DNA from: a virus
IMG/VR virus record: IMGVR_UViG_3300028840_000127
Span: 1 to 37,927 of that record
Direction: 5' to 3' (one strand)
Length of the DNA stretch: 37,927 nt
Part shown: positions 3,397 to 35,507 of the stretch, piece after piece
Position numbering within the stretch: position 1 is the stretch's first letter
Layout: each line of letters begins with the position of its first letter
The notes under the pieces: generated by a model
Database searches by the model: none
Seen by the model: only the letters and a program-made list of their open reading frames with translations
Told to the model about the DNA's origin: nothing
Position numbers and translations under genes: made by a program

Positions 3397-4155
3397 TTAA
3401 ACAATGTAGCTAAGGGTAAATGATAACTGCGGTGCGGCGGAAAGCGCCGTTGTTGTCAAGATTGTTGGTGTAGACCCATCAACAGGAACGCTATAAAAAA
3501 CAATTGCTGTCGCGGCCGAGTTCAGAGTTGCAGTAATAAAAGCGCCAGTTACCCCTGTCCACCCATTTAGGTATGGGGCCGATATGGTAGCGTAACTTGC
3601 CGAAGCAAACGGCAAACCTTGAATCTGCAAATTGCCTGTTATCGTTCCCTTTGCCGCAACCTGAACGAGAACTACGCAAGTTACAAGGTTTCCAACTTTG
3701 GTGTATTTTGCCGATCTAAAGGTATAGGTCTGGCCTGATGTTCCACCAGAACCGCCCAGTACTGCCGTGAAAGTCCCCTCCTCGTAGTCATCGAGCAAAT
3801 TTGCCGCTGCAGTCCCGCCAATATATGCGCCTTCGCTAAGATAAAGTGCCTTAAATCGTGATGTACTTCTGCCCAAGTCAATAGTTCCGTCACTGTTCCC
3901 TGCGGCTAATTCTGGACTGACAGCAGAGGACGCACTATTAAATAACAAGTTTGCAACGCCGGTTCCTATTTTTATGTATCCAGCTCTAGTGGTGATTACA
4001 CCAGTGCCGACTGTTACTTGGGAGTTTGCCCCTAACGAGATGTCTGACCCATCGTCCATTACGATGTCGTTGGCTCCGCTGGTATTCCCCTTTGCCAGAA
4101 TCTCGCTCAAGGTATCAGATGCTAGTGCTAATTGTGTTGATACTGTTTTTAACAT
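3397..4155 (-). CDS. Tail fibre protein with shared C-terminal receptor domain
   Basis: A 252-residue protein. The first ~115 residues are Gly/Ser/Thr-rich with short beta-type repeats. The second half begins at an element LDDYEEGTFTAVL and continues with a YTKVGNLVTCV segment, then GNLQIQGLPF. This is the common C-terminal module of small phage fibres. The same module, diverged, ends the second tailspike (GVWTPVL, YYSQINGIVTL, GNLTLAGLPI). It therefore probably forms a distal trimeric receptor-contact or folding domain. The gene lies between the two beta-helix spikes. It could be an independent short fibre or an adaptor that joins the second spike to the particle. Confidence 0.72.
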   Translation of the reverse strand: MLKTVSTQLALASDTLSEILAKGNTSGANDIVMDDGSDISLGANSQVTVGTGVITTRAGYIKIGTGVANLLFNSASSAVSPELAAGNSDGTIDLGRSTSRFKALYLSEGAYIGGTAAANLLDDYEEGTFTAVLGGSGGTSGQTYTFRSAKYTKVGNLVTCVVLVQVAAKGTITGNLQIQGLPFASASYATISAPYLNGWTGVTGAFITATLNSAATAIVFYSVPVDGSTPTILTTTALSAAPQLSFTLSYIV

Positions 4156-10216: not shown

Positions 10217-12010
10217 CTATATTGGGCTGAGATCCATTAGCGCCTTGGCAAGTTCTTTTTCTCGCTCGCCCAGGTAGTCGTAGCCTTGCCTCATGGCGCC
10301 AAGTATGTAGCTGTCACCTGCCGCCTTTTTAATCGCCGGGACATAGGGCGCGATAGCGCCACCGATACCCTGCATTATTTGCTCGCCGTACTGCTGACCC
10401 TGCTCAGTCCTTGGCTGATAGTTGAAGTAGTCTTCAGTCTCGCGCCTGCCCTGGGCCATTTCTTCGGCGCTGTAGTTAACGCCTGGCACATACCTGTCGG
10501 CGGCGTATCGAGCAATGGCACCAGGTGCCGACAATAATGGCCCGGCCATAGCCGACACAACGTCAGCAGACAGGTCAGCAACCCCGGCAGTCTTCATGAT
10601 GCCGCTGAGTAACTGCTGCTGCACGCTGGTCAAAAGGTCTGGTTCTGGCTGCGTTCGGATGGAGCTGGCAAAGTCCCGATTCGCTTGTTGCATCAGGTCG
10701 CCGCCAGTCGGCGCCAGCATCGCTTCCTCGTCCTCGGCGGCGGGTGGCATCCTGACGCCCATGCCGCCTGTATCGGCGCTGGCGGTTCCTCCTACTGTCG
10801 CTGCGGTGGCCGCGCCAACCGGCTTATACATGGATTCTGATATCTCAAAATCCTTTTTTTTACCTTTGTTCTCTATAAATCCTTGCTCTTTGTAAAACTT
10901 TTTCAGCCGGCTCAAGCTGGTCGCGCCGAAATCCGTAGTTGGCGTGAGAGCTAGAGGCTTTCCTTCTTGGTCTGCGTACTCAGTTAAGTCGCTCACTATT
11001 TGGGCGCCAATGCCGCTGCCTTGCTGATCAGGAGGGACAATCATTTTCGATATGGTTATATTGTTCCCGGCCTCATACACGTCGAGCAATACTTCAGGGT
11101 ATTTGGCTTTTATGGCAGACAACGACTTCCCCGTAGCACTCAACGGCCCAGCCTGGGCTTCCTCCGGTGTAATGGTGCCTGCTGCGATGGCTGCGGCAAT
11201 CGGGACGCTGACGCCGTACTTTTTGGTAATGTCAATCAGCTTGTCGTCGAACACAACGTAGTTGAATGATTGTTTGTCGGGTGATTTGTGCCGGGTAGAT
11301 GCGTCAGCGTATTGGACGCCCTTGATGCCTGCATCCTTGAGCATTTGGGCCGCGTCTTCAGCGCCATCCTCTTCAAGGTATCGAACAAGGTCCATCCCGT
11401 ATGCGTTATCGCGGCGACGCGCTGCAGCATTGATCGCGCCTTCTTCTGCGTACTGATACCAGTCTGTCTTCTTCAACGCGTTCATTACGCTTTCGGACTG
11501 CTCATCAAGTGGCAAATCCCAGTCGATGAACTCATCCGGTGTGGCGTCAATGTTGACCTCGTACATTGAGCCTTTGCTGGTGGTCGTTATGCGCCCTGAG
11601 TCAACCAGTGACTTGATGCGATCAGCTACTTCAGGAAGATCATTATCTGCCGCTGCTCGCATTGCTTGGTCAGCGTCTCCGTACACGCTCAAAAAACCCA
11701 CGGCGTTATTGTATTCTTGGTCTTTTATAGCCAACTCACGGGATTTTGGAGACAGCAAATCTTCTCCGTCTATTTTTACTCTGCTACCTGTACCCGCTTT
11801 TCGGTAACCTTCTGCCGTCTTTTCTCTTTCGGCAAAGTACAGTCCGCGTCCATACGCCTGGGCACCCTCGCCTGTCCCGATCTGGGACGTGCTGAACTCA
11901 TCAAAGCTGTAAGGCGAACCGTGATACGCCCGGATTCCTTCAACGGCAGCCTCATCACCCGCATCAGCACGCTTGGCCAGCTCCGCAAGCGCCCTTGTAA
12001 GTTTAGACAT
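10217..12010 (-). CDS. ADP-ribosyltransferase-like + GNAT-like fusion with ejection-protein-type C-terminus
   Basis: A 597-residue multidomain protein. Residues ~27-262 resemble the ADP-ribosyltransferase-like domain of phage polyvalent proteins: AYHGSPYSFDEF, then YGRGLYFAE, then EVNID and NYVVFDDKLIDI. Residues ~318-395 resemble a GNAT acetyltransferase, with the acetyl-CoA loop PPDQQGSGIGAQIV and a LKKFYKEQGF ending. Residues ~440-597 are low-complexity and helical and include YQPRTEQGQQ, an element also present in the gp16-like ejection protein at 30702. The ATG overlaps the portal stop (TAATG), so it is made with the portal. The likely picture is a virion-carried enzyme delivered into the host to modify proteins. 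Catalysis by either domain is not proven, and the substrate is unknown. Confidence 0.72.
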   Translation of the reverse strand: MSKLTRALAELAKRADAGDEAAVEGIRAYHGSPYSFDEFSTSQIGTGEGAQAYGRGLYFAEREKTAEGYRKAGTGSRVKIDGEDLLSPKSRELAIKDQEYNNAVGFLSVYGDADQAMRAAADNDLPEVADRIKSLVDSGRITTTSKGSMYEVNIDATPDEFIDWDLPLDEQSESVMNALKKTDWYQYAEEGAINAAARRRDNAYGMDLVRYLEEDGAEDAAQMLKDAGIKGVQYADASTRHKSPDKQSFNYVVFDDKLIDITKKYGVSVPIAAAIAAGTITPEEAQAGPLSATGKSLSAIKAKYPEVLLDVYEAGNNITISKMIVPPDQQGSGIGAQIVSDLTEYADQEGKPLALTPTTDFGATSLSRLKKFYKEQGFIENKGKKKDFEISESMYKPVGAATAATVGGTASADTGGMGVRMPPAAEDEEAMLAPTGGDLMQQANRDFASSIRTQPEPDLLTSVQQQLLSGIMKTAGVADLSADVVSAMAGPLLSAPGAIARYAADRYVPGVNYSAEEMAQGRRETEDYFNYQPRTEQGQQYGEQIMQGIGGAIAPYVPAIKKAAGDSYILGAMRQGYDYLGEREKELAKALMDLSPI

Positions 12011-14187: not shown

Positions 14188-15420
14188 CTACCAGCGATTG
14201 ACAGTAGGCACTGGTCGTGCTTGCGGTTTCGCAACTGCGGCACCTCGGCGTACAGCCTCGACAGCATAGCGCAAGGCGTCTATGACGTGGTTGTTCTTGT
14301 CGCTAAGTATCGGCAGCACCGCGTCTGTCAACGGGTTTGTCTTGTAGCTGTACAGCGTCAGCTCATCAATGACGTGCTGGCAGCTTGGATGCACCACGAT
14401 GTCATAAGACTTCAGGAACTCGATGCCATCCTCGACGCTACCGGCGCCCTTGACGCTGGGCATGATCTTGGGAAAGCCGTTCTTGCGCATATGGCTGATA
14501 GTCTCTGGCCTGGATGAGTCGGCAACGATGGGCCACTTCTCCGACTGGTCCACGGTGTAGAACAGGTCGGGCGTATCCATGATCTCGCAGCCTACCTGAT
14601 AAGCCTCTTGGTCGATGTACAGCGTCCTGCCCACCAGGTAGCATCGCACCAGCGCCGTTGGGTCAGCAGCATAGCCCCAGTCGGCGCCAAACCGGAACAT
14701 GGCATCAGCCGGTGTGTCGAACTCCTCGACGCGCCAGTTGTTGAACACGCGTGACTGGCTATTCTTGACGTAACCGCCAAGCCAGACGTGACCATACTTG
14801 TCGGGATCTCGGTCTCGGTCGTACTCCATCTCAGCCCGCAGCACGTCGGGGAACCACGGGTTGCTGCTGAAGTTGACCTCCTGCACGATGGCGCCGTCAG
14901 GCGGGTTAGGTCCACGCAACAGCATGTCGATTGGATCAGTCGGCAGGTGCGGGTTCCAAGTGAACCACAGCTCTGAGCCTGGCTTGCGTATCGTTGGCCT
15001 CAGCAGGTCCAGGCTGCGCTGCGATAGGCTACTGGCCTCCTCCGACCAGCAGCAGTCAAAGCCTTCCAAAGACTTAATCGACTCGCCAGTGTGGTTCTGC
15101 ATACCGGCGAAGATAATCACACCTGGGCCACGCGTAGATTTGATCTGGGTCTCCTGCACCTCGAAATAAGAGCCAACGCCCATTGCTTTGATCTTGTCTT
15201 CCAGCAGGCGCTTGACGGACATCTTGATGGACTTCTGGACTTCCCGGACACAGACCGTGTTCTTTGCCGGGTTCATGACGTGTTCTTCAATGACCATCTC
15301 GCCAAAGCCCCAACTCTTGCCAGAACCCCTTCCTCCATGTGCCGCCTTGTACCGAGCAGGTTGCAGCAGCGGCACCATCCACTTAGGCGTAAGTATCTCC
15401 AGGTTGCTGGCTGGTTTCAC
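14188..15420 (-). CDS. Large terminase subunit (ATPase + nuclease)
   Basis: This 410-residue protein translocates and cuts DNA during head filling. The N-terminal ATPase shows Walker A GGRGSGKS at residues 29-36 and a Walker B-like stretch FDCCWSEEAS at 121-130, whose Glu pair supplies the catalytic carboxylate. The C-terminal RNase H-like nuclease has acidic residues at Asp247 (FGADWGY), Asp301 (VADSSRPE) and Asp381 (HVIDALRYA). The pattern is of the PBSX/Sf6 gp2 type, which usually packages by headful. It begins with GTG at 15420, overlapping the small-subunit stop as GTGA, so synthesis of the two subunits is coupled. Confidence 0.93.
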   Translation of the reverse strand: MKPASNLEILTPKWMVPLLQPARYKAAHGGRGSGKSWGFGEMVIEEHVMNPAKNTVCVREVQKSIKMSVKRLLEDKIKAMGVGSYFEVQETQIKSTRGPGVIIFAGMQNHTGESIKSLEGFDCCWSEEASSLSQRSLDLLRPTIRKPGSELWFTWNPHLPTDPIDMLLRGPNPPDGAIVQEVNFSSNPWFPDVLRAEMEYDRDRDPDKYGHVWLGGYVKNSQSRVFNNWRVEEFDTPADAMFRFGADWGYAADPTALVRCYLVGRTLYIDQEAYQVGCEIMDTPDLFYTVDQSEKWPIVADSSRPETISHMRKNGFPKIMPSVKGAGSVEDGIEFLKSYDIVVHPSCQHVIDELTLYSYKTNPLTDAVLPILSDKNNHVIDALRYAVEAVRRGAAVAKPQARPVPTVNRW

Positions 15421-15848
15421 TCAACAACCTTGCGGGTGATCTGCTGAATCATCAGCGGGTTATCCGCATCGCCAGCGACCTGTAGCTTGTCGCCGTACTG
15501 CTTCGAGGCCAGCTTCGATAGCAGCCACTTGCGGCTGTCGATCTGCAAGCGCTGCTTCTGCACGGCGCCAGAATCTGTCGCGCCGCTATCTGTCGAGCCA
15601 ACGGGTTCATCGGCTATGGACATGATCTCATCGGCCCAGTAAGCGTGCAAAGCATCGCGTGCTTTTGCGTAATGTTCATTTAGAATTGGGTCTTCGTTCG
15701 TCCACAGCAAAAACGTGGTTGGAATAATGCCTTGCGCTGCGCACGACTTGCGAAGCGACAACCCTTCGTGCATACCGTCAAGGACTGCCTTGCCGACTAC
15801 TTTCCGGTCATACTTCTTAGCTCGTACTTGTTTTGGTTTCGCAACCAT
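15417..15848 (-). CDS. Small terminase subunit
   Basis: A 143-residue DNA-packaging initiator with a basic N-terminus (MVAKPKQVRAKKYDRKVV) and a helix-turn-helix-like region (GLSLRKSCAAQGIIPTTFLLW). A Lys/Gln-rich C-terminal half follows, in the pattern of Sf6/phage small terminases. It would form a ring that recognises the pac site and loads the large subunit. I chose the ATG at 15848 because AGGAGG lies 7 bases before it. A longer frame from 15869 would put that site inside the gene. The AT-rich, repeat-filled region upstream may hold the late promoter and possibly pac. Confidence 0.85.
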   Translation of the reverse strand: MVAKPKQVRAKKYDRKVVGKAVLDGMHEGLSLRKSCAAQGIIPTTFLLWTNEDPILNEHYAKARDALHAYWADEIMSIADEPVGSTDSGATDSGAVQKQRLQIDSRKWLLSKLASKQYGDKLQVAGDADNPLMIQQITRKVVE

Positions 15849-15881
15849 ATCATTTCCTCCTGCCGTCATCGGCGCCAGGTT

Positions 15882-15911
15882 AGTTTAGCAGTAGGGCAAT
15901 GCCCAGCACAA
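15882..15911 (-). promoter_or_regulatory. Weak candidate late promoter before small terminase
   Basis: On the minus strand TTGTGC (15911-15906) stands 18 bases before TAAACT (15887-15882), about 35 bases ahead of the terminase ATG. Matches to sigma-70 boxes are three of six and four of six, so this is weak. It is listed because some promoter is expected at the head of the structural operon. Confidence 0.22.
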
Positions 15912-15918
15912 CGAGATC

Positions 15919-15942
15919 AAAAAACAACCAGCAAAACTGCTG
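15919..15942 (-). terminator. Possible weak intrinsic terminator between primase-helicase and terminase genes
   Basis: On the minus strand CAGCA-GTTT-TGCTG is followed by GTTGTTTTTT. The stem is only five pairs but the T tract is good. It would end leftward transcripts from the primase-helicase before the terminase genes and could be a site for antitermination. It partly overlaps the first repeat of the TGAGACCA array. Confidence 0.35.
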
Positions 15943-16174
15943 AGACCAAAGCCACTGAGACCAACGCCAACACCAAACTCATATATAAATAATATTTTTT
16001 ATTTAACACTATTTGCACAATTTACCCTTTTATTTATTTTTATATAATTTACAACATTCTATCTATTATTTGGTCTCTTGGTCTAAAAGAAGAATATATA
16101 TATATAAAACAAAGAGTTATTGTGAGACCAGGGGTGAGACCAATTTGCCGATGAGACCATCTTTACGGTCTCAT
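15941..16174. other. Iteron-like array around an AT-rich core: candidate replication origin or operator cluster
   Basis: This is the heart of the only gene-free stretch over 300 bases (15849-16194). Five exact TGAGACCA copies start at 15941, 15956, 16123, 16135 and 16152, the first two 15 bases apart. Inverted copies are TGGTCTC at 16071, TGGTCT at 16079 and GGTCTCAT at 16167. The segment between the two groups (about 15980-16115) is almost entirely A and T with runs such as ATATATATATA. Repeats for a binding protein flanking an easily melted core, next to the primase-helicase gene, fit an iteron origin. A repressor or packaging site is the main alternative. No open frame of note was seen here. 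Confidence 0.6.
16151..16174. repeat. Perfect 8-base palindrome in the iteron region
   Basis: ATGAGACC and GGTCTCAT flank an 8-base spacer, 21 bases past the stop of the primase-helicase gene. It contains one direct and one inverted copy of the repeat unit. It can form a hairpin in RNA or bind a dimeric protein. No T run follows on either strand, so a terminator role is unlikely. Confidence 0.85.
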
Positions 16175-16194
16175 CAAGCAATCGCCAATCAAAA

Positions 16195-18630
16195 TTAAAA
16201 CGGAATATAATCTGGGTCAGTGTGAACCTCAGCAATTTTTTGCTTGGCAGTCGCTATGGTCTCCGGCGACTTGTACCAAAACGAGTGTTTGTTTCGCTTT
16301 GCACTGCCTGTTTTTTCCGGGATATTTAGCCGGTTACTGCGTCCGCAAAAGGTATACCCAAGCTCCACCATGCTTTTCCGCAGCGCGTTTGTCTGCGGAA
16401 AATCACCACCCTCAAGCATCACCAACTTGGCCAAGTACGTTACGTCAACCAGGTGGTCGTTGATGATGTCGCAACCGTGTTCGATGATCGCGTCCTCCAC
16501 ACACTGGTGGTCGTCGGTCACAGCCAGGTCTTGCATCTGCACCTTGGCGTTGGTCATCGGCGCCTTGCCCTGCGCATCAAACCCTGCGCTCAGTACCCTG
16601 GTGCAAAGGTAATACGCCAGCGCGTCAGCCCGCCTGCTGCTCTCAGCAAACAGCCTAGTGAAGTAGGCTGCGTCTTCCGCCCCCTCGCCAAACGCCTCCG
16701 CCATCTGCGCCTTGTCCTGCAGCGCAGCAAACAGCACCGCATAACGCCTGTCGCCACTGTCCACTGGTATCGCGTCCTTGTGGTTGGTTAGCATCAGGTA
16801 ACTGGTAAAGTTCGGCACGGTCACCGCATCGCGGCCCTTAGCCTCAATGGACACGGTGTTGTTGGCGATAAATGATTTGAGCCTGTCGATCACCGCGTAC
16901 TTGCTGTCGCCTGATATGCGTATCTCCTCAATAATCGCCAACCTGGCCCCAGCAGCCCAGCCGGTAAAGCGCCCCATGATGTCAGACACTGACACTTGCC
17001 GGGCGTTGGTGCCGAGACAAGACTGCATCACGGTCGAGTAGTATGACTTGCCGCAACCCTGAGCACCCTGCAGGCACACCGACCAGTTGACGTGCTTGCC
17101 TGGGTTCTGAACGATGTAAGCAAGCCAGTCCAATAAAATGTCACGCTCTGCGGCATCCGGCAACAGCAACGCGGTGTGCGCCAGGAACATATCAACAACG
17201 GCCTGACCGTCCGCGTCCAGCGCCTTGCATGGACCCACGCCAGACTCCCGGTAACTGTTAAGCATGGCCCTGCCCTCGTAATCAAACAGCGTCTGCGCCC
17301 CAGGCCAGTACATATTATCGACCACCGACACAAAGTCTGGCGACTCCGACACCAGCACCGACGCCTGGCGACCGTCCAGCAAGACAGCCTGTTCGTTGGC
17401 AAACTTTGTATTAAAAGCCTCTCGCTTGATGCTGTAGCCCAGACCCGTGTGGTGAAAGACGCACGGCACCTCAACGTAAACCCAGTCCTGAGCAAAGCCC
17501 AGCTCGCCGCTGCTGCTGCTGCTGCGCTTGGCCGGGGTCAGCGACTTGCGAACATCGACTTTGCCTATGCCGACCGACCTTGGCCAACCCTTGTGCAGCG
17601 CCTCGACCAGCATTGAGCGGTCAACGTCTGCCAGCAGGTTGCTTGGCATAGCCTTGACGCGATCAGCCAGGGCTTGGTAGCCACTGCGGTCGGTCACAGC
17701 AGCAGCCTCCTGCAGCAACGCGTCAAGAGGCGTGGCACCAGTGTCATCTGTCGTGGCGACTGTGCCCAGGCCGCCCGAGCCCTTTACCTGATAGATTACC
17801 GAGGCAAAAGTAACCGACCGGGATGACCGGCCAAACGACTTCCACCGACGCGATAAGTCCTCACTATCGTACTTGGGCGAACGCTTAGACCAACCGTGCC
17901 AGATCTCAAGACCCCTGTCGGATCCCACGAACTGGTGGTTGAGCGCGGCACCAACCCGCAGCCAGTCATCGTACTCGAGTCCCGCCGCCGGGTACGCCTT
18001 CAGATACTCTATGACCTGTGCCTCGGTCAGGTCCAGCGGGTGCGCGGCCAGCGCGGCCTCAAGGTCATCCGGCGCCGTGTGCTTGGGTGGTGCGATGCTC
18101 ACCACGTTGTTAAAGTAGTCGCCGACCTGCAGCGGCTTACCTTCAACGCAAAGCGACCACGCCTTGCTCACGTCCGGGCAGGTTGGCATGTACATAAACT
18201 GGTTGGCCTTATAGCTACACACATCGAACGGGATATCAATCGCGTCCCCGACCAGCTTTGCCAGGTCCCGGTACTCTGCCGCTGACACGCCACGTGACAA
18301 AGGTATCACGATGCGCAGCCGTGGCGCGTCAGGCGCGTGGTTGTAGGTTGAGTACGCAGCCACAGCGGCGTCGATGTTCATCCGCAGCGCCAGCTCAACG
18401 TCATCCAACGTCATGCCAATGGCGTCGGCGTCGAAGGTCAGCAACGTGCGCTCAACTAAATTTTCCTCACGGCGTTCATGCCCATCGAAATGGCCCCCGA
18501 CAAAAAACTTACCACCCTTGGCATCAGCCTGCTGGTGCCGGGTCAATACACCGGCCAGTTTGTCCCATTGCACGCTGCGATTATCAACGCGCCCCATATC
18601 GTTCTCACCAACTGCAATCTTGACCATCAT
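16195..18630 (-). CDS. Primase-helicase (AEP-like primase + PriCT-2-like + VirE/D5-type helicase)
   Basis: An 811-residue replication protein. Residues ~1-175 look like a primase-polymerase domain, with the metal motif TFDADA at 65-70 and YNHAPDAPRLRIVIPLSR near 96-113. Residues ~201-285 resemble a PriCT-2 linker (YDDWLRVGAALN, RRWKSFG). Residues ~490-660 are the VirE-type ATPase, with Walker A GAQGCGKS (522-529), Walker B LAIIEEI (564-570) and TNHKDAIPVDSGDRRY (615-630). It would unwind DNA and make primers for the PolB encoded on the other strand. It starts at the first of two ATGs (18630), after an AAGGAAGGA site inside the regulator's 3' end. It is transcribed leftward, away from the other replication genes. 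Confidence 0.88.
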   Translation of the reverse strand: MMVKIAVGENDMGRVDNRSVQWDKLAGVLTRHQQADAKGGKFFVGGHFDGHERREENLVERTLLTFDADAIGMTLDDVELALRMNIDAAVAAYSTYNHAPDAPRLRIVIPLSRGVSAAEYRDLAKLVGDAIDIPFDVCSYKANQFMYMPTCPDVSKAWSLCVEGKPLQVGDYFNNVVSIAPPKHTAPDDLEAALAAHPLDLTEAQVIEYLKAYPAAGLEYDDWLRVGAALNHQFVGSDRGLEIWHGWSKRSPKYDSEDLSRRWKSFGRSSRSVTFASVIYQVKGSGGLGTVATTDDTGATPLDALLQEAAAVTDRSGYQALADRVKAMPSNLLADVDRSMLVEALHKGWPRSVGIGKVDVRKSLTPAKRSSSSSGELGFAQDWVYVEVPCVFHHTGLGYSIKREAFNTKFANEQAVLLDGRQASVLVSESPDFVSVVDNMYWPGAQTLFDYEGRAMLNSYRESGVGPCKALDADGQAVVDMFLAHTALLLPDAAERDILLDWLAYIVQNPGKHVNWSVCLQGAQGCGKSYYSTVMQSCLGTNARQVSVSDIMGRFTGWAAGARLAIIEEIRISGDSKYAVIDRLKSFIANNTVSIEAKGRDAVTVPNFTSYLMLTNHKDAIPVDSGDRRYAVLFAALQDKAQMAEAFGEGAEDAAYFTRLFAESSRRADALAYYLCTRVLSAGFDAQGKAPMTNAKVQMQDLAVTDDHQCVEDAIIEHGCDIINDHLVDVTYLAKLVMLEGGDFPQTNALRKSMVELGYTFCGRSNRLNIPEKTGSAKRNKHSFWYKSPETIATAKQKIAEVHTDPDYIPF

Positions 18631-18631
18631 T

Positions 18632-18838
18632 TCATCCTTCCTTTTTAGTTTCTGCTTGTTCGACCAAACTCAACGCCCTGATCCAACCCTGGGTGTCCGA
18701 TTCAACCTGCAGCGCCCGCCGCGCCGACATGTACCCCTTCGTACACCACTGGCTGACCTGGGACTGAGTAACGCCGAGCGCGTCGGCCATCCCCTTTTGG
18801 CTACCGTAATGCTTAACTGCTAATTTAATTGCGCTCAC
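18632..18838 (-). CDS. YdaS/Cro-like HTH regulator
   Basis: A 68-residue DNA-binding protein with an HTH: AVKHYGSQKGMADALGVTQSQVSQW, shown here in its two halves AVKHYGSQKGMADAL and GVTQSQVSQW. The recognition helix is in the second half. It resembles YdaS-type Cro regulators of prophages, which act as lysogeny or toxin-antitoxin switches. It starts with GTG at 18838, with a poor ribosome site, and is divergent from the early operon starting at 18903, so it probably controls both directions from the 64-base gap. No partner CI or toxin was found. The primase-helicase follows immediately. Confidence 0.75.
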   Translation of the reverse strand: MSAIKLAVKHYGSQKGMADALGVTQSQVSQWCTKGYMSARRALQVESDTQGWIRALSLVEQAETKKEG

Positions 18839-26399: not shown

Positions 26400-27782
26400 A
26401 TGCCCGTACTATCACGCTTGGATTTGCACAATTACCAAAAAAGAGCCGTGCAATACATAAAAGACAAGCGCCGCTGCGGATTATTCCTTGATCTAGGTAT
26501 GGGCAAGACCTCCAGCACGCTCACTGCTGTCAGCGACCTGCTGGATGAGTTCCTGGCGCACAAGGTGCTGGTCGTTGCCCCGCTGCGCGTCGCGTTAAGC
26601 GTGTGGCATGATGAGATCCGCACCTGGGACCACCTGCGGCACCTGAGCATCACCAGCGTGCTGGGCACTGAGCGTCAGCGGCTGGCGGCGTTGCAGCGGG
26701 TGACAGACATCTACACCATCAACCGCGAGAACCTTCCCTGGCTGGTAACGCACTACGGTAAGAAGTGGCCGTTCGATGTCATCATTATTGACGAGTCCAG
26801 CAGCTTTAAGAGCGCCAGCAGCCAACGCTTTAAGGCGCTGAAGAAGGTGGCGCCAGAGTGTCAGTACATGATCTTGTTGACCGGCACCCCGGCGCCCAAC
26901 AGCCTGCTGGACATCTGGTCGCAGATGTATCTTATCGACTTTGGTGCCACGCTGGGGCGGACCATGTCGGGATACAAGCAACGCTTTTTTGAACAGCAAG
27001 GATATGGCGGGTACACGATGACAATCCGCCCAGGCGCTGCTGAGACCATCCACAAGCTGATCGAGCCGCTGGCTATGTCAATGGCCGCAGCGGACTACCT
27101 GGACCTGCCTGACAGGCTGGACATCATGCACCGCGTTACACTGCCAGAAAAGTCGCAGCAAGCGTACCTGGCTTTCGAGCGTGATCTGCTGATCGAGTTT
27201 GCCAGCGGCGAGGACATCGAGGCAGCAAGTGCAGCAGTGCTGGCCGGCAAGCTGCTGCAGTGGTGCAACGGCTCAATCTATACCGACGAGCACGGCAGCT
27301 ACATAGAGCTGCACAAGGCAAAGCTGGAAGCACTGAGCGAGATCCGTGAGGACAATAGCGGCGAGACCATGCTGGTGGCGTATGCGTACAAGGCCGACCT
27401 TGAGCGACTTAAGGCGCGGTTTCCAGACGCTGTTGTGCTGGACAAAGACCCCGAGACCATCGCCCGCTGGAACCGCGGTGAGATATCCATGCTGCTGGCG
27501 CACCCTGCCAGCGCCGGGCATGGCCTCAACCTGCAGCACGGCGGCTCGCTGATCGTGTGGTTCGGCCTGTGCTGGTCGCTGGAATACTACCAGCAGTTTA
27601 ATGCCCGGCTCCATCGCCAGGGACAGCAGTGCGCTGTGCGGATACTGCACCTAGTGGCTGACGGCTGTTTGGATGAGCGAGTGCTGCTGGTGCTGGCTGA
27701 TAAGGACGCGACACAACAAAAACTACTGCTGGCGCTGAAGGCAAAGTGCCATACCGGAGGAGCAAATGACATACGAATTTAA
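26400..27782 (+). CDS. SNF2-type DEAD/DEAH helicase
   Basis: A 460-residue superfamily-2 ATPase. The first lobe has the Walker A LDLGMGKTSS (30-39), motif II IIIDESSS (128-135, DEXX form) and motif III LLTGTPAPN (159-167). The second lobe contains the SNF2-like ending YYQQFNARLHRQGQ (motif VI, with the arginine finger). Related phage helicases sit with DUF2800/DUF2815 modules and are thought to remodel forks or protein-DNA complexes. The ATG at 26400 follows AAGGAA. The gene overlaps the next by 17 bases, with GGAGGA inside its 3' end. Confidence 0.87.
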   Translation: MPVLSRLDLHNYQKRAVQYIKDKRRCGLFLDLGMGKTSSTLTAVSDLLDEFLAHKVLVVAPLRVALSVWHDEIRTWDHLRHLSITSVLGTERQRLAALQRVTDIYTINRENLPWLVTHYGKKWPFDVIIIDESSSFKSASSQRFKALKKVAPECQYMILLTGTPAPNSLLDIWSQMYLIDFGATLGRTMSGYKQRFFEQQGYGGYTMTIRPGAAETIHKLIEPLAMSMAAADYLDLPDRLDIMHRVTLPEKSQQAYLAFERDLLIEFASGEDIEAASAAVLAGKLLQWCNGSIYTDEHGSYIELHKAKLEALSEIREDNSGETMLVAYAYKADLERLKARFPDAVVLDKDPETIARWNRGEISMLLAHPASAGHGLNLQHGGSLIVWFGLCWSLEYYQQFNARLHRQGQQCAVRILHLVADGCLDERVLLVLADKDATQQKLLLALKAKCHTGGANDIRI

Positions 27783-28594: not shown

Positions 28595-28747
28595 ATGAAA
28601 ACCAGAGAATTTGAAGGCAAATCTATCGAAGACATTATCGCCAAGATCGAAGCAGAAGGCGAAGTCTTCAGCTTCGCAGCGTTCAAGCGCAGCGACGGGG
28701 TCTGGCGCGTGGTGGCTGAGTGGTTTGAGGTTGTTCCGCTGCACTAG
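28595..28747 (+). CDS. Small hypothetical protein (50 aa), last gene of the rightward operon
   Basis: A 50-residue protein: KTREFEGKSIEDIIAKI, then SFAAFKRSDGVWRVVAEWF. The ribosome site is AAAAGGAAA. Its TAG stop overlaps the TAG stop of the leftward DUF5675 gene within the four bases CTAG, so the two operons converge with no spacer or terminator. Function unknown. Confidence 0.6.
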   Translation: MKTREFEGKSIEDIIAKIEAEGEVFSFAAFKRSDGVWRVVAEWFEVVPLH

Positions 28748-29157
28748 CGGGTATCGTCAACCATCAAAGCCCCCTCACGAATTACCAGCGGCATTGTCTT
28801 GATGCCGCTGGTGATCCTGTAAAATTCGGCAACGGCGTTTGCTGAGTTAGTTACACCATCCAAATGGGCAAAAACACCCCGCCCAAAACCAATACACCCC
28901 TCAACATCATGCGCGTAGTTTGCGGTATGGATCAGGATGTGGGTTCGTCCCGGTACGTCAGCGACCTCCCATGTGTCTGGCCCAAAGCGTGGCGAGTTGA
29001 CCCGGACCATCGTGTACTCGCCAACCGGGATGCATGACACGCTGAACGCGTTATCGAGCCAGGGGCGCTCAATGGTCCACCAGGACAGGTCGTTGTAGCT
29101 GGCGCGACCCAGGGTGCGATTGTTGAAATTGGCGAAGCGAATAATTTCAAGCGTCAT
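28744..29157 (-). CDS. DUF5675 protein, candidate lysis enzyme
   Basis: A 137-residue protein with the DUF5675 pattern: a TLGRASYNDLSWWTIERPW start region, CIPVGEYTM, then HILIHTANYAHDVEGCIGFG. The His...GCIG ending resembles the His/Cys arrangement of L,D-transpeptidase-like folds. These proteins recur in phage lysis loci next to holins, so it may be the peptidoglycan-active endolysin here; no muramidase or amidase was found elsewhere. I chose the ATG at 29157 because it overlaps the holin stop as ATGA; an earlier start at 29367 would sit inside the holin gene. Confidence 0.72.
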   Translation of the reverse strand: MTLEIIRFANFNNRTLGRASYNDLSWWTIERPWLDNAFSVSCIPVGEYTMVRVNSPRFGPDTWEVADVPGRTHILIHTANYAHDVEGCIGFGRGVFAHLDGVTNSANAVAEFYRITSGIKTMPLVIREGALMVDDTR

Positions 29158-29564
29158 GATTTTGCCACGCCCTTGCCTTTCTCCCAGGTTCGCAAACCGC
29201 CCAGGCCCAGCATACCAATCAAAATTGGCGTCAGTTGACTGGAGTCCAGAATCGGAAACTCCGGCGGCGTATCCATTGCGATGACCGCAACGAAGCGCAT
29301 AAGTGGCGACAGCACGAACTGATACGCCAAAGAAGCCACACACACCCAGCCGACAGCAGGACGCCAACCGCCAATAAATAGACTGCTGCTTGCCGCTTCA
29401 ACCTTGTTGATTTCGAGCTGTCCCAGTCTGGCTTGGATCTCACCGGCCATCTCCTGCGTCTGTGCCTCGGCCATCAGCTTGGCGGCCAGGTCTTTGTCTT
29501 TGACGAACTTACCGATAAAAGTATCCAGCAAGCCCAGGCCGGCGGTTACCGGGTCTAGGCTCAT
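29154..29564 (-). CDS. Holin of the 3TM (GTA holin) family
   Basis: A 136-residue membrane protein with an N-terminal amphipathic helix (residues ~1-45) and the family signature GGWRPAVGWVCVASLAYQFV, divided here as GGWRPAVGWV and CVASLAYQFV. It has further hydrophobic segments at about 85-97 and 112-124 (LIGMLGLGGLRTWEK at the end). The family makes the inner-membrane holes that release enzyme at lysis. The ATG overlaps the preceding stop and its own stop overlaps the DUF5675 ATG, which gives a coupled three-gene lysis cassette. Confidence 0.85.
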   Translation of the reverse strand: MSLDPVTAGLGLLDTFIGKFVKDKDLAAKLMAEAQTQEMAGEIQARLGQLEINKVEAASSSLFIGGWRPAVGWVCVASLAYQFVLSPLMRFVAVIAMDTPPEFPILDSSQLTPILIGMLGLGGLRTWEKGKGVAKS

Positions 29565-30106: not shown

Positions 30107-30186
30107 CACGCGCAACTCATAAGATTAAAAGATACCTAATTTTCGCACATGTCAATGGCATACGCTACTTCTAACAGTTGCGCTTG

Positions 30187-30209
30187 TTGCCGGAAAGGGT
30201 GTAAGCTGT
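30187..30209 (+). promoter_or_regulatory. CGGAAAG element before the 30235 mini-operon
   Basis: TTGCCGGAAAG followed by GGTGTAAGCTG resembles the third copy at 28220-28241 (TTACCGGAAAG then ACTGTATACTG) at about 17 of 22 positions, with the same spacing to a -10-like box. It precedes an AAGGAAA ribosome site and the ATG at 30235. This suggests that the two promoters share one regulator. Confidence 0.45.
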
Positions 30210-30234
30210 TGGATCAAACTAACAAGGAAACAAC

Positions 30235-30372
30235 ATGACCAACACGAATTACATCAAGAAACACCGCGACAAGCGTGCAGCAGATGGCCTGGTGCGCGTT
30301 GACGTATGGGTACACAACACCAATAAAATTGAGATCAAGGCACTAGCCAAGCAACTGGAGGCGCCAAAATGA
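30235..30372 (+). CDS. Small ribbon-helix-helix-like protein (45 aa)
   Basis: A 45-residue basic protein with the order basic helix (YIKKHRDKRAADG), a strand (LVRVDVWV) and a helix (IEIKALAKQL). This is the pattern of short CopG/Arc-like DNA-binding proteins common in phages. It is preceded by AAGGAAA and the CGGAAAG element, so self-control at that element is an attractive guess. It overlaps the next gene as ATGA. It is a plus-strand gene lying between two blocks of minus-strand genes. Confidence 0.6.
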   Translation: MTNTNYIKKHRDKRAADGLVRVDVWVHNTNKIEIKALAKQLEAPK

Positions 30373-30464
30373 TGGAAGGATACTGGGAAGCCCAGCAGCA
30401 GTACGATGACCAGCACGATGACTGGGACGATGAGGATGAGATGGAGGATGACGACTATGACTAA
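30369..30464 (+). CDS. Very acidic small protein (31 aa)
   Basis: A 31-codon frame with more than half Asp/Glu residues (DDWDDEDEMEDDDYD at the end). Its ATG overlaps the previous TGA, and its tail overlaps the next ATG. Such tiny acidic proteins can mimic DNA and block host nucleases or regulators, but that is only a suggestion from composition. The coupled overlaps support expression. Confidence 0.45.
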   Translation: MMEGYWEAQQQYDDQHDDWDDEDEMEDDDYD

Positions 30465-30543
30465 AAAACCGATCTTCTTCTGGCTTTACGCGGTGCTGGT
30501 GGTTGTGACCATCCACCTAATCTTCGATTTGGGGCTGCTATAA
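30457..30543 (+). CDS. Tiny single-pass membrane protein (28 aa)
   Basis: A 28-residue frame that consists of a basic start (MTKKP) and one hydrophobic helix (IFFWLYAVLVVVTIHLIF), ending in DLGLL. It overlaps the acidic gene by 8 bases, and its TAA overlaps the stop of the convergent gene at 30538. It could be a small accessory holin/antiholin, given the lysis genes next door, or a host-membrane effector. The shortness limits confidence. Confidence 0.42.
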   Translation: MTKKPIFFWLYAVLVVVTIHLIFDLGLL

Positions 30544-30705
30544 ATCAGGCCGCCCTAGGATGCTTTCGCCCGTGCGGCGTATGGTACGAAACTCATCGCC
30601 AAGGATCATGACGACAATGCCCTGGCGCTGGTTGCGTTCGTACTCAGCCCAACCCAACCCCACCAGGCGGTCGCAAGTGCCCTGTTGGGGTTGGGTTAAC
30701 CTCAC
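30538..30705 (-). CDS. Small protein after the ejection genes (55 aa)
   Basis: A 55-residue frame that starts with GTG, overlapping the gp16-like stop as GTGA, and ends in TAG against the convergent mini-operon. The second half looks like a folded segment (RQGIVVMILGDEFRTI, then RRTGESILGR). The family is not recognised. A large hairpin (30651-30697) lies within its first codons and may slow or regulate its translation, or may instead be the real feature here. Confidence 0.48.
   Translation of the reverse strand: MRLTQPQQGTCDRLVGLGWAEYERNQRQGIVVMILGDEFRTIRRTGESILGRPDL
30651..30697 (-). other. 12-base-pair stem-loop directly after the gp16-like gene
   Basis: AACCCAACCCCA and TGGGGTTGGGTT pair perfectly over 12 bases around a 23-base loop, which can pair again (CAGG/CCTG). 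On the minus strand it begins five bases past the ejection gene stop. No T run follows. Candidate roles are mRNA 3'-end protection, attenuation, or control of the 55-residue frame that it overlaps. Confidence 0.8.
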
Positions 30706-33882: not shown

Positions 33883-34656
33883 TTAATAGGTGCCAGGTGA
33901 ATTTGGATTAGGAACCATGCCGGGCATTGGTGTAACCGTGCTAGGCGCTGCGTTAGCAAAAGGACCATACCCCTGCATACCCATGCCGCCCAGGTAACCA
34001 ACTGAGCCGGCCACGTTGCCCCATGCCTGGCCTTTTGCCAGTGCGGCTTGCGCCTGCGCGTTGCCTGCCCCAATCTGCGCGTTACCGATGTTAGATGCCA
34101 TGTTCATACCTGCCGCGCCAACGCCGGCGCCAGACGCCTGGCCCATACTGGCAAGGTTCTGCGCTGCGTTGCCGCCAAAGGTCGCCATACCGCCCAGCTT
34201 CGTATACTTGTCTTCGATCATCTGAGATAGAACCGCTGGCCTGAATTGCGCCAAGGCTGCCTGGATGTTTCCGCCTCGCAGACCGCCAGTTGCTGATGCG
34301 TTCTGCAGAATGGCGTTCTCGCCCTGGCGAACTTGCTCCAAGTAGAGTGGCGACTGTTCAATGCGGTTGATTGCCTCCTGCTGTGCAGCAGGCCCAAACA
34401 TTCCGTTCAGCGCCTGCTGCTCATTCAGTGCTGGTTGGGCCACCTCTGAGTAGGACGCGATCTGGCGCAACGCAGGGTTGCCGGCGTCAACGTAGGGCTT
34501 TAGAACTTGCTGCATGGCCTGAAACTGCGCACGCTGCTCTGCAATGCTGGCATCTGCCGCTGCACCTTGGGCGTCAGCAGCTTTGCCGGCAGCCTTTGAT
34601 GACATTACCCCGCCAACAACGGCGCTTCCTATAATAGCTGTTGCTATTCCTGACAT
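33883..34656 (-). CDS. gp7-like DNA ejection protein
   Basis: A 257-residue protein (P22 gp7 has 229). The N-terminus is hydrophobic and Gly-rich (ATAIIGSAVVGGVMSSKAAG). A helical region (EQRAQFQAMQQVLKPYVDAG) and a Gly/Ala/Met-rich C-terminus (GYLGGMGMQGYGPF) follow. The N-terminal segment could insert into membrane during ejection. The start overlaps the end of the cupin-SET gene by 13 bases. The order with the next two genes matches P22 7-20-16. Confidence 0.78.
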   Translation of the reverse strand: MSGIATAIIGSAVVGGVMSSKAAGKAADAQGAAADASIAEQRAQFQAMQQVLKPYVDAGNPALRQIASYSEVAQPALNEQQALNGMFGPAAQQEAINRIEQSPLYLEQVRQGENAILQNASATGGLRGGNIQAALAQFRPAVLSQMIEDKYTKLGGMATFGGNAAQNLASMGQASGAGVGAAGMNMASNIGNAQIGAGNAQAQAALAKGQAWGNVAGSVGYLGGMGMQGYGPFANAAPSTVTPMPGMVPNPNSPGTY

Positions 34657-35507
34657 GATAATGCCTCAACTTTTAGCAAGGCGTTTGCCTGCCTGTAATC
34701 AACTGTTAATTCTTCGCCAGCAGACCCGCCTTGGCACCCGGCTATGTTTCGTTTTGCAATTAAGTAAATATCGCCGTTTTCGGTTTGTTTATAAATACAA
34801 TTTGGCGTTGCAGCATGGTTAACGTACCTGCCAGCCGGCGTTCTTTTCCCGTTAATTCTGGCCGGCGCTATGACAGACCCAGGCGTTACCGGCCAACTTA
34901 GAAACAAACCGTTGCCGGCAATGTCAGATTTTCTTATAGATGTGGCAGCAGCCCAACCATGAGGCATGTCGATAATATCGGAAACGTCTTCTGACTGAGC
35001 TTGCACGGTTTCTGCGTCAGTATCTAGCTGGGTTAGCATTTGAGTAAAGTCTTGCCGGTCAACCTCGCAAAGCGCATTCCTAAATTTTTTTTGCGGCACA
35101 TCATAATCAACCCAGGTATCGCTTTTTTCTAAATAAATAGACTCCAACTTGTCTATGTCTGTTTCGTCTGTTGCGTAAACATTTTGCCATACAACCGTTT
35201 CTAGCACATAACCCGTTTTACGCCCTGGCTCGCCAACAAATATTAAAGGCGCAGACAGCACAACCATTGCGCCATCCTTCTCCATAAGAACTTTACCAGT
35301 TATCATAATATTTAAATGTCTAAATTTTTGCCTGTGCCCGATGGCGAAGGTGCCCGCAGGCATGGTGACTTCGCGGATGTAGATGCCTGGGCCAAAATGG
35401 TGAGCGACTGGGCAGGAAGCCTGCGGCAGATTCAGCATCGCAGCTTCGACTTGCTCGATGCCTTCATGCTTTGCAATTGCTGTGGGTTTGACTAATGCTA
35501 CGCTCAA
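34644..35507 (-). CDS. Cupin-like + SET-domain fusion protein
   Basis: A 287-residue protein. Residues ~30-130 form a beta-rich cupin-like domain (GIYIREVTMPAGTFAIGH, LNIMITGKVLMEKDG). Residues ~186-272 show SET-domain marks: GNGLF (198-202), NHAATPNC (230-237) and EELTVDY (265-271). These are the SAM-binding and catalytic knot motifs of lysine methyltransferases. It begins with TTG at 35507 after AAAGGAG. The gene lies just before the ejection genes, so the protein may be carried in the virion and methylate a virion or host protein. DNA of the central and 3' parts is AT-rich compared with its 5' end, a hint of fusion or transfer. Activity is unproven. Confidence 0.72.
   Translation of the reverse strand: MSVALVKPTAIAKHEGIEQVEAAMLNLPQASCPVAHHFGPGIYIREVTMPAGTFAIGHRQKFRHLNIMITGKVLMEKDGAMVVLSAPLIFVGEPGRKTGYVLETVVWQNVYATDETDIDKLESIYLEKSDTWVDYDVPQKKFRNALCEVDRQDFTQMLTQLDTDAETVQAQSEDVSDIIDMPHGWAAATSIRKSDIAGNGLFLSWPVTPGSVIAPARINGKRTPAGRYVNHAATPNCIYKQTENGDIYLIAKRNIAGCQGGSAGEELTVDYRQANALLKVEALSCQE

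Follow-up and report, generated by a model that had tools for sequence, protein, structure and literature searches.

What does a dense cluster of short repeats do between the primase-helicase gene and the packaging genes of an uncultured phage? We analyzed the full 37,927 nucleotides of IMG/VR virus record IMGVR_UViG_3300028840_000127 (the window), which we take to be a circular assembly because of its 31-base terminal repeat. A sequence-only reading had favored an iteron origin, with a repressor array for the late promoter or a pac region as alternatives. We conclude that the array is very likely the phage's origin of theta-type replication, with the adjacent primase-helicase as its putative self-loading initiator and the C-terminal domain of that protein as the predicted reader of the repeats.

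The array and its surroundings

As had been proposed, the array lies beside the primase-helicase gene (16195..18630, minus strand), directly 3′ of it, and the 325 bases from the helicase stop codon (16195) to the start of terS (15869) hold it entirely. The gene encodes the presumed initiator, an 811-residue PrimPol-type protein with PriCT_2 and DUF5906 domains that matches phage DNA primases and has a VapE-like domain match just under the cut-off. A sequence profile of its helicase region matched 7pds, a SaPI-type Rep annotated as 'similar to D. nodosus vapE', at 1.9e-17, and also NrS-1 polymerase; by predicted structure the NrS-1 polymerase helicase region (6k9c) came first, followed by D5-type PrimPol-helicases. 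The next gene after the array, terS (15417..15869, minus strand), was assigned to an Sf6-like terminase small subunit by domain and sequence matches, and is followed leftward by TerL and then a P22-like portal. Upstream of the helicase, similar matches identify a Cro/YdaS-like helix-turn-helix protein (18632..18838, minus strand), and the rightward genes include a nuclease, an ssDNA-binding protein, a DNA polymerase and an SNF2-type helicase.

All five exact direct copies of the octamer TGAGACCA that had been reported are present, on the plus strand at 15941, 15956, 16123, 16135 and 16152. The window contains a single further exact copy, at 27041, so that five of the six copies fall within the gap; 0.99 copies were expected by chance, and none of 100 shuffles reached six. 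Allowing up to one mismatch gave 8 sites in the 325-bp gap compared with 0.24 expected from the density elsewhere. A genome-wide search for a second non-coding clustered octamer found none, the other clustered octamers being CAG/GCA-type runs in two protein genes, and in 100 third-order Markov genomes the best octamer cluster had 4 copies, attained in 2. Two tests had been named that could overturn the origin, and both were run: the octamer is not dense outside the array, and related phages retain a repeat array at the exact position.

The repeats form two sets, at 15941-15963 and 16123-16175, on either side of an AT-rich core. On the terS side is a distal pair of exact TGAGACCA copies (15941..15963, plus strand) 15 bp apart. 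The core (15978..16122), which we presume to be the melting region, or DNA unwinding element, had been described as about 130 bases of nearly pure A/T; its composition is 81% A/T, and the array does include the AT-richest 100-mer of the genome (15975-16074, 84% A/T). Within the core lies an opposite-facing pair, TGGTCTCT/TGGTCTAA (16071..16086, minus strand), with one mismatch each. Past it, a proximal pair of exact copies (16123..16142, plus strand) is spaced 12 bp apart, and just after the helicase stop codon is an inverted pair with 9-bp arms, GATGAGACC/GGTCTCATC (16150-16158 and 16167-16175), separated by an 8-base loop. The sequence-only reading had counted three inverted copies and a perfect palindrome as flanking elements. 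Three inverted copies do exist (minus strand, at 16071, 16079 and 16166), but each carries one mismatch to the octamer and two of them sit inside the AT-rich part; the palindrome is this inverted repeat with its loop, and its arms include two of the octamer copies already counted. The description of the gap as the largest gene-free stretch was not confirmed: the list of open reading frames has longer unassigned gaps (for example 30116-30701). Cumulative GC skew, suggested as a check, reaches its minimum near 19 kb rather than 16 kb and is uninformative on the origin, since the minimum coincides with the change in gene direction.

A short minus-strand reading frame (15880-15990), which has a membrane-like segment (MSLV...LGIALLLN in the relative L002), runs across the distal iterons and stops shortly before terS. 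A one-base difference breaks this frame in the window.

Conservation and concerted switching of the repeats

A profile scan for relatives of the helicase gave 80 loci, 74 of them with enough sequence, and an array was scored where at least 4 copies of one octamer occurred from −60 to +440 around the helicase stop codon. Arrays were found 3′ of the helicase at 42 of 74 loci, whereas regions upstream had one at 6 of 67 and regions within the gene at 0 of 74. Of the 42, 34 come from the 41 loci of the close family (34-82% identity) and 8 from the 33 loci of the distant branches, counts that are not independent because many loci are near-duplicates. DUF5906 relatives at about 30% identity mostly have no 3′ array. 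When the 3′ regions were shuffled (50 times each), 71 of the 74 loci never exceeded 3 copies and the remaining loci reached at most 4.

The order of parts is kept among relatives: an inverted pair close to the stop codon, a direct pair spaced by 12-13 bp, an opposite-facing copy or pair, the AT-rich core with its distance from the helicase stop codon unchanged, and one or two distal copies. Under this common layout the octamer itself varies (TGAGACCA, GTGCGCAA, GGGCGCAA, TGGGGCGC, ATTGGACC, AGTCCCTA), and the direct pair keeps its spacing where the octamer is different. L002, whose helicase is 82% identical to that of the window, has the same array including both distal copies. L003, at 74% identity, has an array in the same place with a changed octamer, one distal copy recognizable in its changed form, and an inverted repeat kept through compensatory changes; hairpin energies for the inverted repeat are above those of shuffles. 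In both relatives, and in L412 and L415, the opposite-facing pair recurs between +97 and +119 relative to the stop codon. Some loci have a second repeat family upstream of the helicase, GAACCTAA in nine copies or AACCGGAA in four to five (L400, L401, L404 and L410, L411).

The repeats change in concert. Between the window and L003, TGGTCTCA became CTGTCTCA at each direct site that aligns cleanly, and the opposite-facing pair was altered too; columns of the core hexamer are identical at 29 of 36 positions compared with 126 of 220 elsewhere, with one site that does not align. In a second pair of relatives, L388 (array at 3755-4060) and L389 (6401-6710), all eight sites switched from GGTGCGCAAT to GGGGTCCAAT. 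Agreement there is 1 of 24 at the three discriminating positions, 50 of 56 at the other site positions and 168 of 200 (84%) in the spacers. The helicase cores of L388 and L389 are 99% identical, and the protein differences cluster in the predicted wing (residues 776-781) and the C-terminal tail. It is about an even bet that these cases reflect a general behavior of a large uncultured phage group, in which the architecture of the origin is fixed and its word switches: a few wing residues would change, all six to eight repeats would follow, the spacers would stay, and mutually blind replicons would result. If true, such blindness would be expected where theft of the initiator by satellites or by co-infecting phages drives the switching.

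Candidate readers of the repeats

We compared repeat similarity with protein identity across 19 non-redundant full-length proteins. Repeat similarity rises with identity of the C-terminal domain (r 0.65), and the partial correlation with the other four domains controlled is 0.52 (p < 0.0002), although covariation across related sequences partly reflects shared ancestry, of which the partial test removes only part. Partial correlations for those four domains (N-terminal, PriCT_2, linker and helicase) range from −0.17 to 0.03. The window and L002 have the same octamer, with N-termini 62% and helicase 96% identical; the window and L003 have different octamers, with N-termini 94% and helicase 57% identical. 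The presumed iteron reader comprises residues 701-811 (16198..16530, minus strand), in the predicted order helix-strand-helix-helix-strand-strand-strand. A Foldseek search with the model of this domain alone gave no match below E 0.001, and in a second structural search (VIA) most of the best matches were winged helices with low Z scores (best 5.6), weak matches that suggest a winged-helix-like fold. Predicted fold and covariation agree in favoring this domain as the candidate reader of the iterons.

Other proteins could bind here. The sequence-only reading had considered a repressor array, and the repeats might be operators at a leftward late promoter in the AT-rich gap, bound either by the Cro/YdaS-like protein or by some late activator. 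The gap does separate early from late leftward genes, and it holds four promoter-like matches where 1.0 was expected along with one terminator-like match, so it may also house a promoter or terminator. However, exact TGAGACCA does not occur near the Cro-like gene or in the region upstream of it, where that gene's own control region would presumably lie; octamer similarity follows the helicase C-terminal domain; and in relatives the elements hold their arrangement relative to the helicase stop even as the next gene varies. We consider an operator array improbable and less likely than an origin, but the two could coexist, and the Cro-like protein may be an additional binder.

Somewhat less probable still is a packaging signal (pac or cosB-like), at which TerS would bind repeats near its own gene and start packaging. 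TerS sites near their own gene are usual, about 70 bp separate the array from terS, and repeats with a bendable AT tract resemble lambda cosB. A packaging site should follow its cognate TerS in sequence, yet the two dissociate in both directions: the window and L002 have a common octamer with TerS proteins only 43-47% identical, and L002 and L003 have different octamers with TerS proteins 89% identical. No TGAGACCA array is present in TerS relatives of 53-66% identity; where a helicase gene is upstream in these relatives, other repeats come after it. The array also persists in L387, L389 and L414, where the next recognized gene encodes either a ParB-like or a minor tail protein. The pac reading is contradicted because the octamer tracks the primase-helicase rather than TerS.

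There is a slim chance that the repeats are a cluster of priming sites, still part of an origin, where the N-terminal PrimPol would read the octamer as single-stranded template. Among solved structures NrS-1 is the nearest relative, and it primes at particular motifs in the template (TTTGGTTA or GTG; PMC8718748). Against this, repeat identity does not track the N-terminal or PriCT_2 domains (partial r −0.15 and −0.17), the octamers of the window and L003 differ despite nearly identical N-termini, and the inverted arrangement and helical spacing suit duplex binding. A partition or incompatibility site, or repeats with no function, is barely credible: although repeats beside replication genes may resemble parS or have spread through slippage, no partition gene was recognized among the window proteins scanned, and the copies are not tandem and hold their layout and orientation over large divergence.

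Comparison with known origins and arrays elsewhere

The label 'origin' rests on comparison with relatives and known systems and very probably applies. SaPI Rep and SCCmec Cch2 each use a C-terminal domain to bind repeats immediately downstream of the gene that encodes them (PMC7581432), and PICI origins consist of an AT-rich region between two sets of iterons, 3′ of pri-rep (PMC6092414). In the window, as in SaPI Rep-ori and PICI pri-rep-ori, a helicase/primase initiator gene is followed by an AT-rich stretch with short repeats to either side, and the repeats vary from one element to another; the C-terminal domain reads them in those systems (PMC7581432, PMC6092414) and is the predicted reader here. 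The helicase core, which matches 7pds by sequence, places the window protein among the D5/VapE-like or DUF927 self-loading helicases that serve such origins, and the position directly 3′ of the initiator gene is conserved in relatives. In position, architecture and helicase, then, the window has the features of a SaPI/PICI-type Rep origin. It differs in the inverted pair at the stop codon and the opposite-facing pair within the core, and in its host: the window is not a PICI satellite, as it encodes terminase subunits, a P22-like portal and tail-type genes of its own. The candidate origin is of a known kind, carried here by a tailed phage that has packaging genes of its own.

If the primase-helicase works as SaPI Rep and SCCmec Cch2 do, its C-terminal winged-helix-like domain would bind the TGAGACCA repeats as duplex DNA, and two helicase rings would form on the repeat sets that flank the AT-rich core and lie inside it. 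The core would then melt, the rings would load onto the single strands, and the PrimPol half would prime synthesis.

Other systems are similar in part. Cch2 is also a D5-type helicase, with a C-terminal domain that binds repeats lying downstream of the gene for Cch2 itself, but it has no fused primase and uses three AAGTG iterons in a 23-bp direct-repeat region (PMC7581432). NrS-1 primase-polymerase shares a PrimPol N-terminus fused to a ring helicase and is the nearest solved fold of the helicase region, but its described specificity is for single-strand priming motifs and not for a duplex iteron array (PMC8718748). At P4 alpha/ori-crr and the phage Sfi21 origin, likened here by description only, a primase-helicase acts on short repeats near an AT-rich stretch.

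Repeats after a helicase gene are not confined to this family. TerS relatives with other primase/helicase families (VapE-like, AAA_25 plus Toprim) have their own short repeats (CGGTAAC, CGGTAGCA, AGGGTAAC, TCCCCCTA and others), each array directly after a different primase/helicase gene (L005:5455-5650, L006:5615-5730, L008:5050-5350, L009:5015-5300, L011:4280-4420 and L015:4375-4510). TGAGACCA arrays themselves occur 3′ of DUF927 helicases (L028:618-893, L084:3161-3507, L101:6313-6670, L280:2729-2841) and of an AAA_25 ATPase (L290:3790-3890), some in bacterial genome contigs. The presence of one octamer next to unrelated helicases may reflect convergence or shared DNA-binding domains. Starting from the motif, 4 of 120 TGAGACCA-pair loci among the matches listed have a primase-helicase 3′ end no more than 300 bp away (L028, L084, L101 and L048, a near relative of the window) compared with 0 of 120 among the matches listed for the reversed octamer; a fifth locus (L062) lies at 757-892 bp. 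This enrichment is modest, and supports the origin case without being able to carry it alone. L018, L104 and similar motif matches were left out, as their repeats seem to be tandem or of a coding type. A mixed-orientation TGAGACCA array (L059:3954-4330; L459:2425-2724) belongs to a phage with a DnaB-type helicase and lies several kb from the gene for that helicase; because the array is not beside a D5-type helicase, the octamer alone does not mark such origins. Literature matches listed for the octamer were all unrelated to the array.

An origin at this locus would give a candidate to an uncultured phage group that had none assigned in the records searched, and would make an origin organization described as peculiar to phage satellites a common one in tailed phages. 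The natural pairs (the window with L002 and L003; L388 with L389) make it testable how a multi-repeat origin changes its recognition sequence without losing function, and bear on which initiator residues set that sequence.

Elsewhere in the window, a SET-domain protein (34644-35507, minus strand) is encoded amid structural genes, and a protein behind the portal gene (10217-12010, minus strand) has weak ART-PolyVal (ADP-ribosyltransferase) and GNAT acetyltransferase matches. A GTA-type holin and a DUF5675 protein (29154-29564 and 28744-29367, minus strand) probably form the lysis region.
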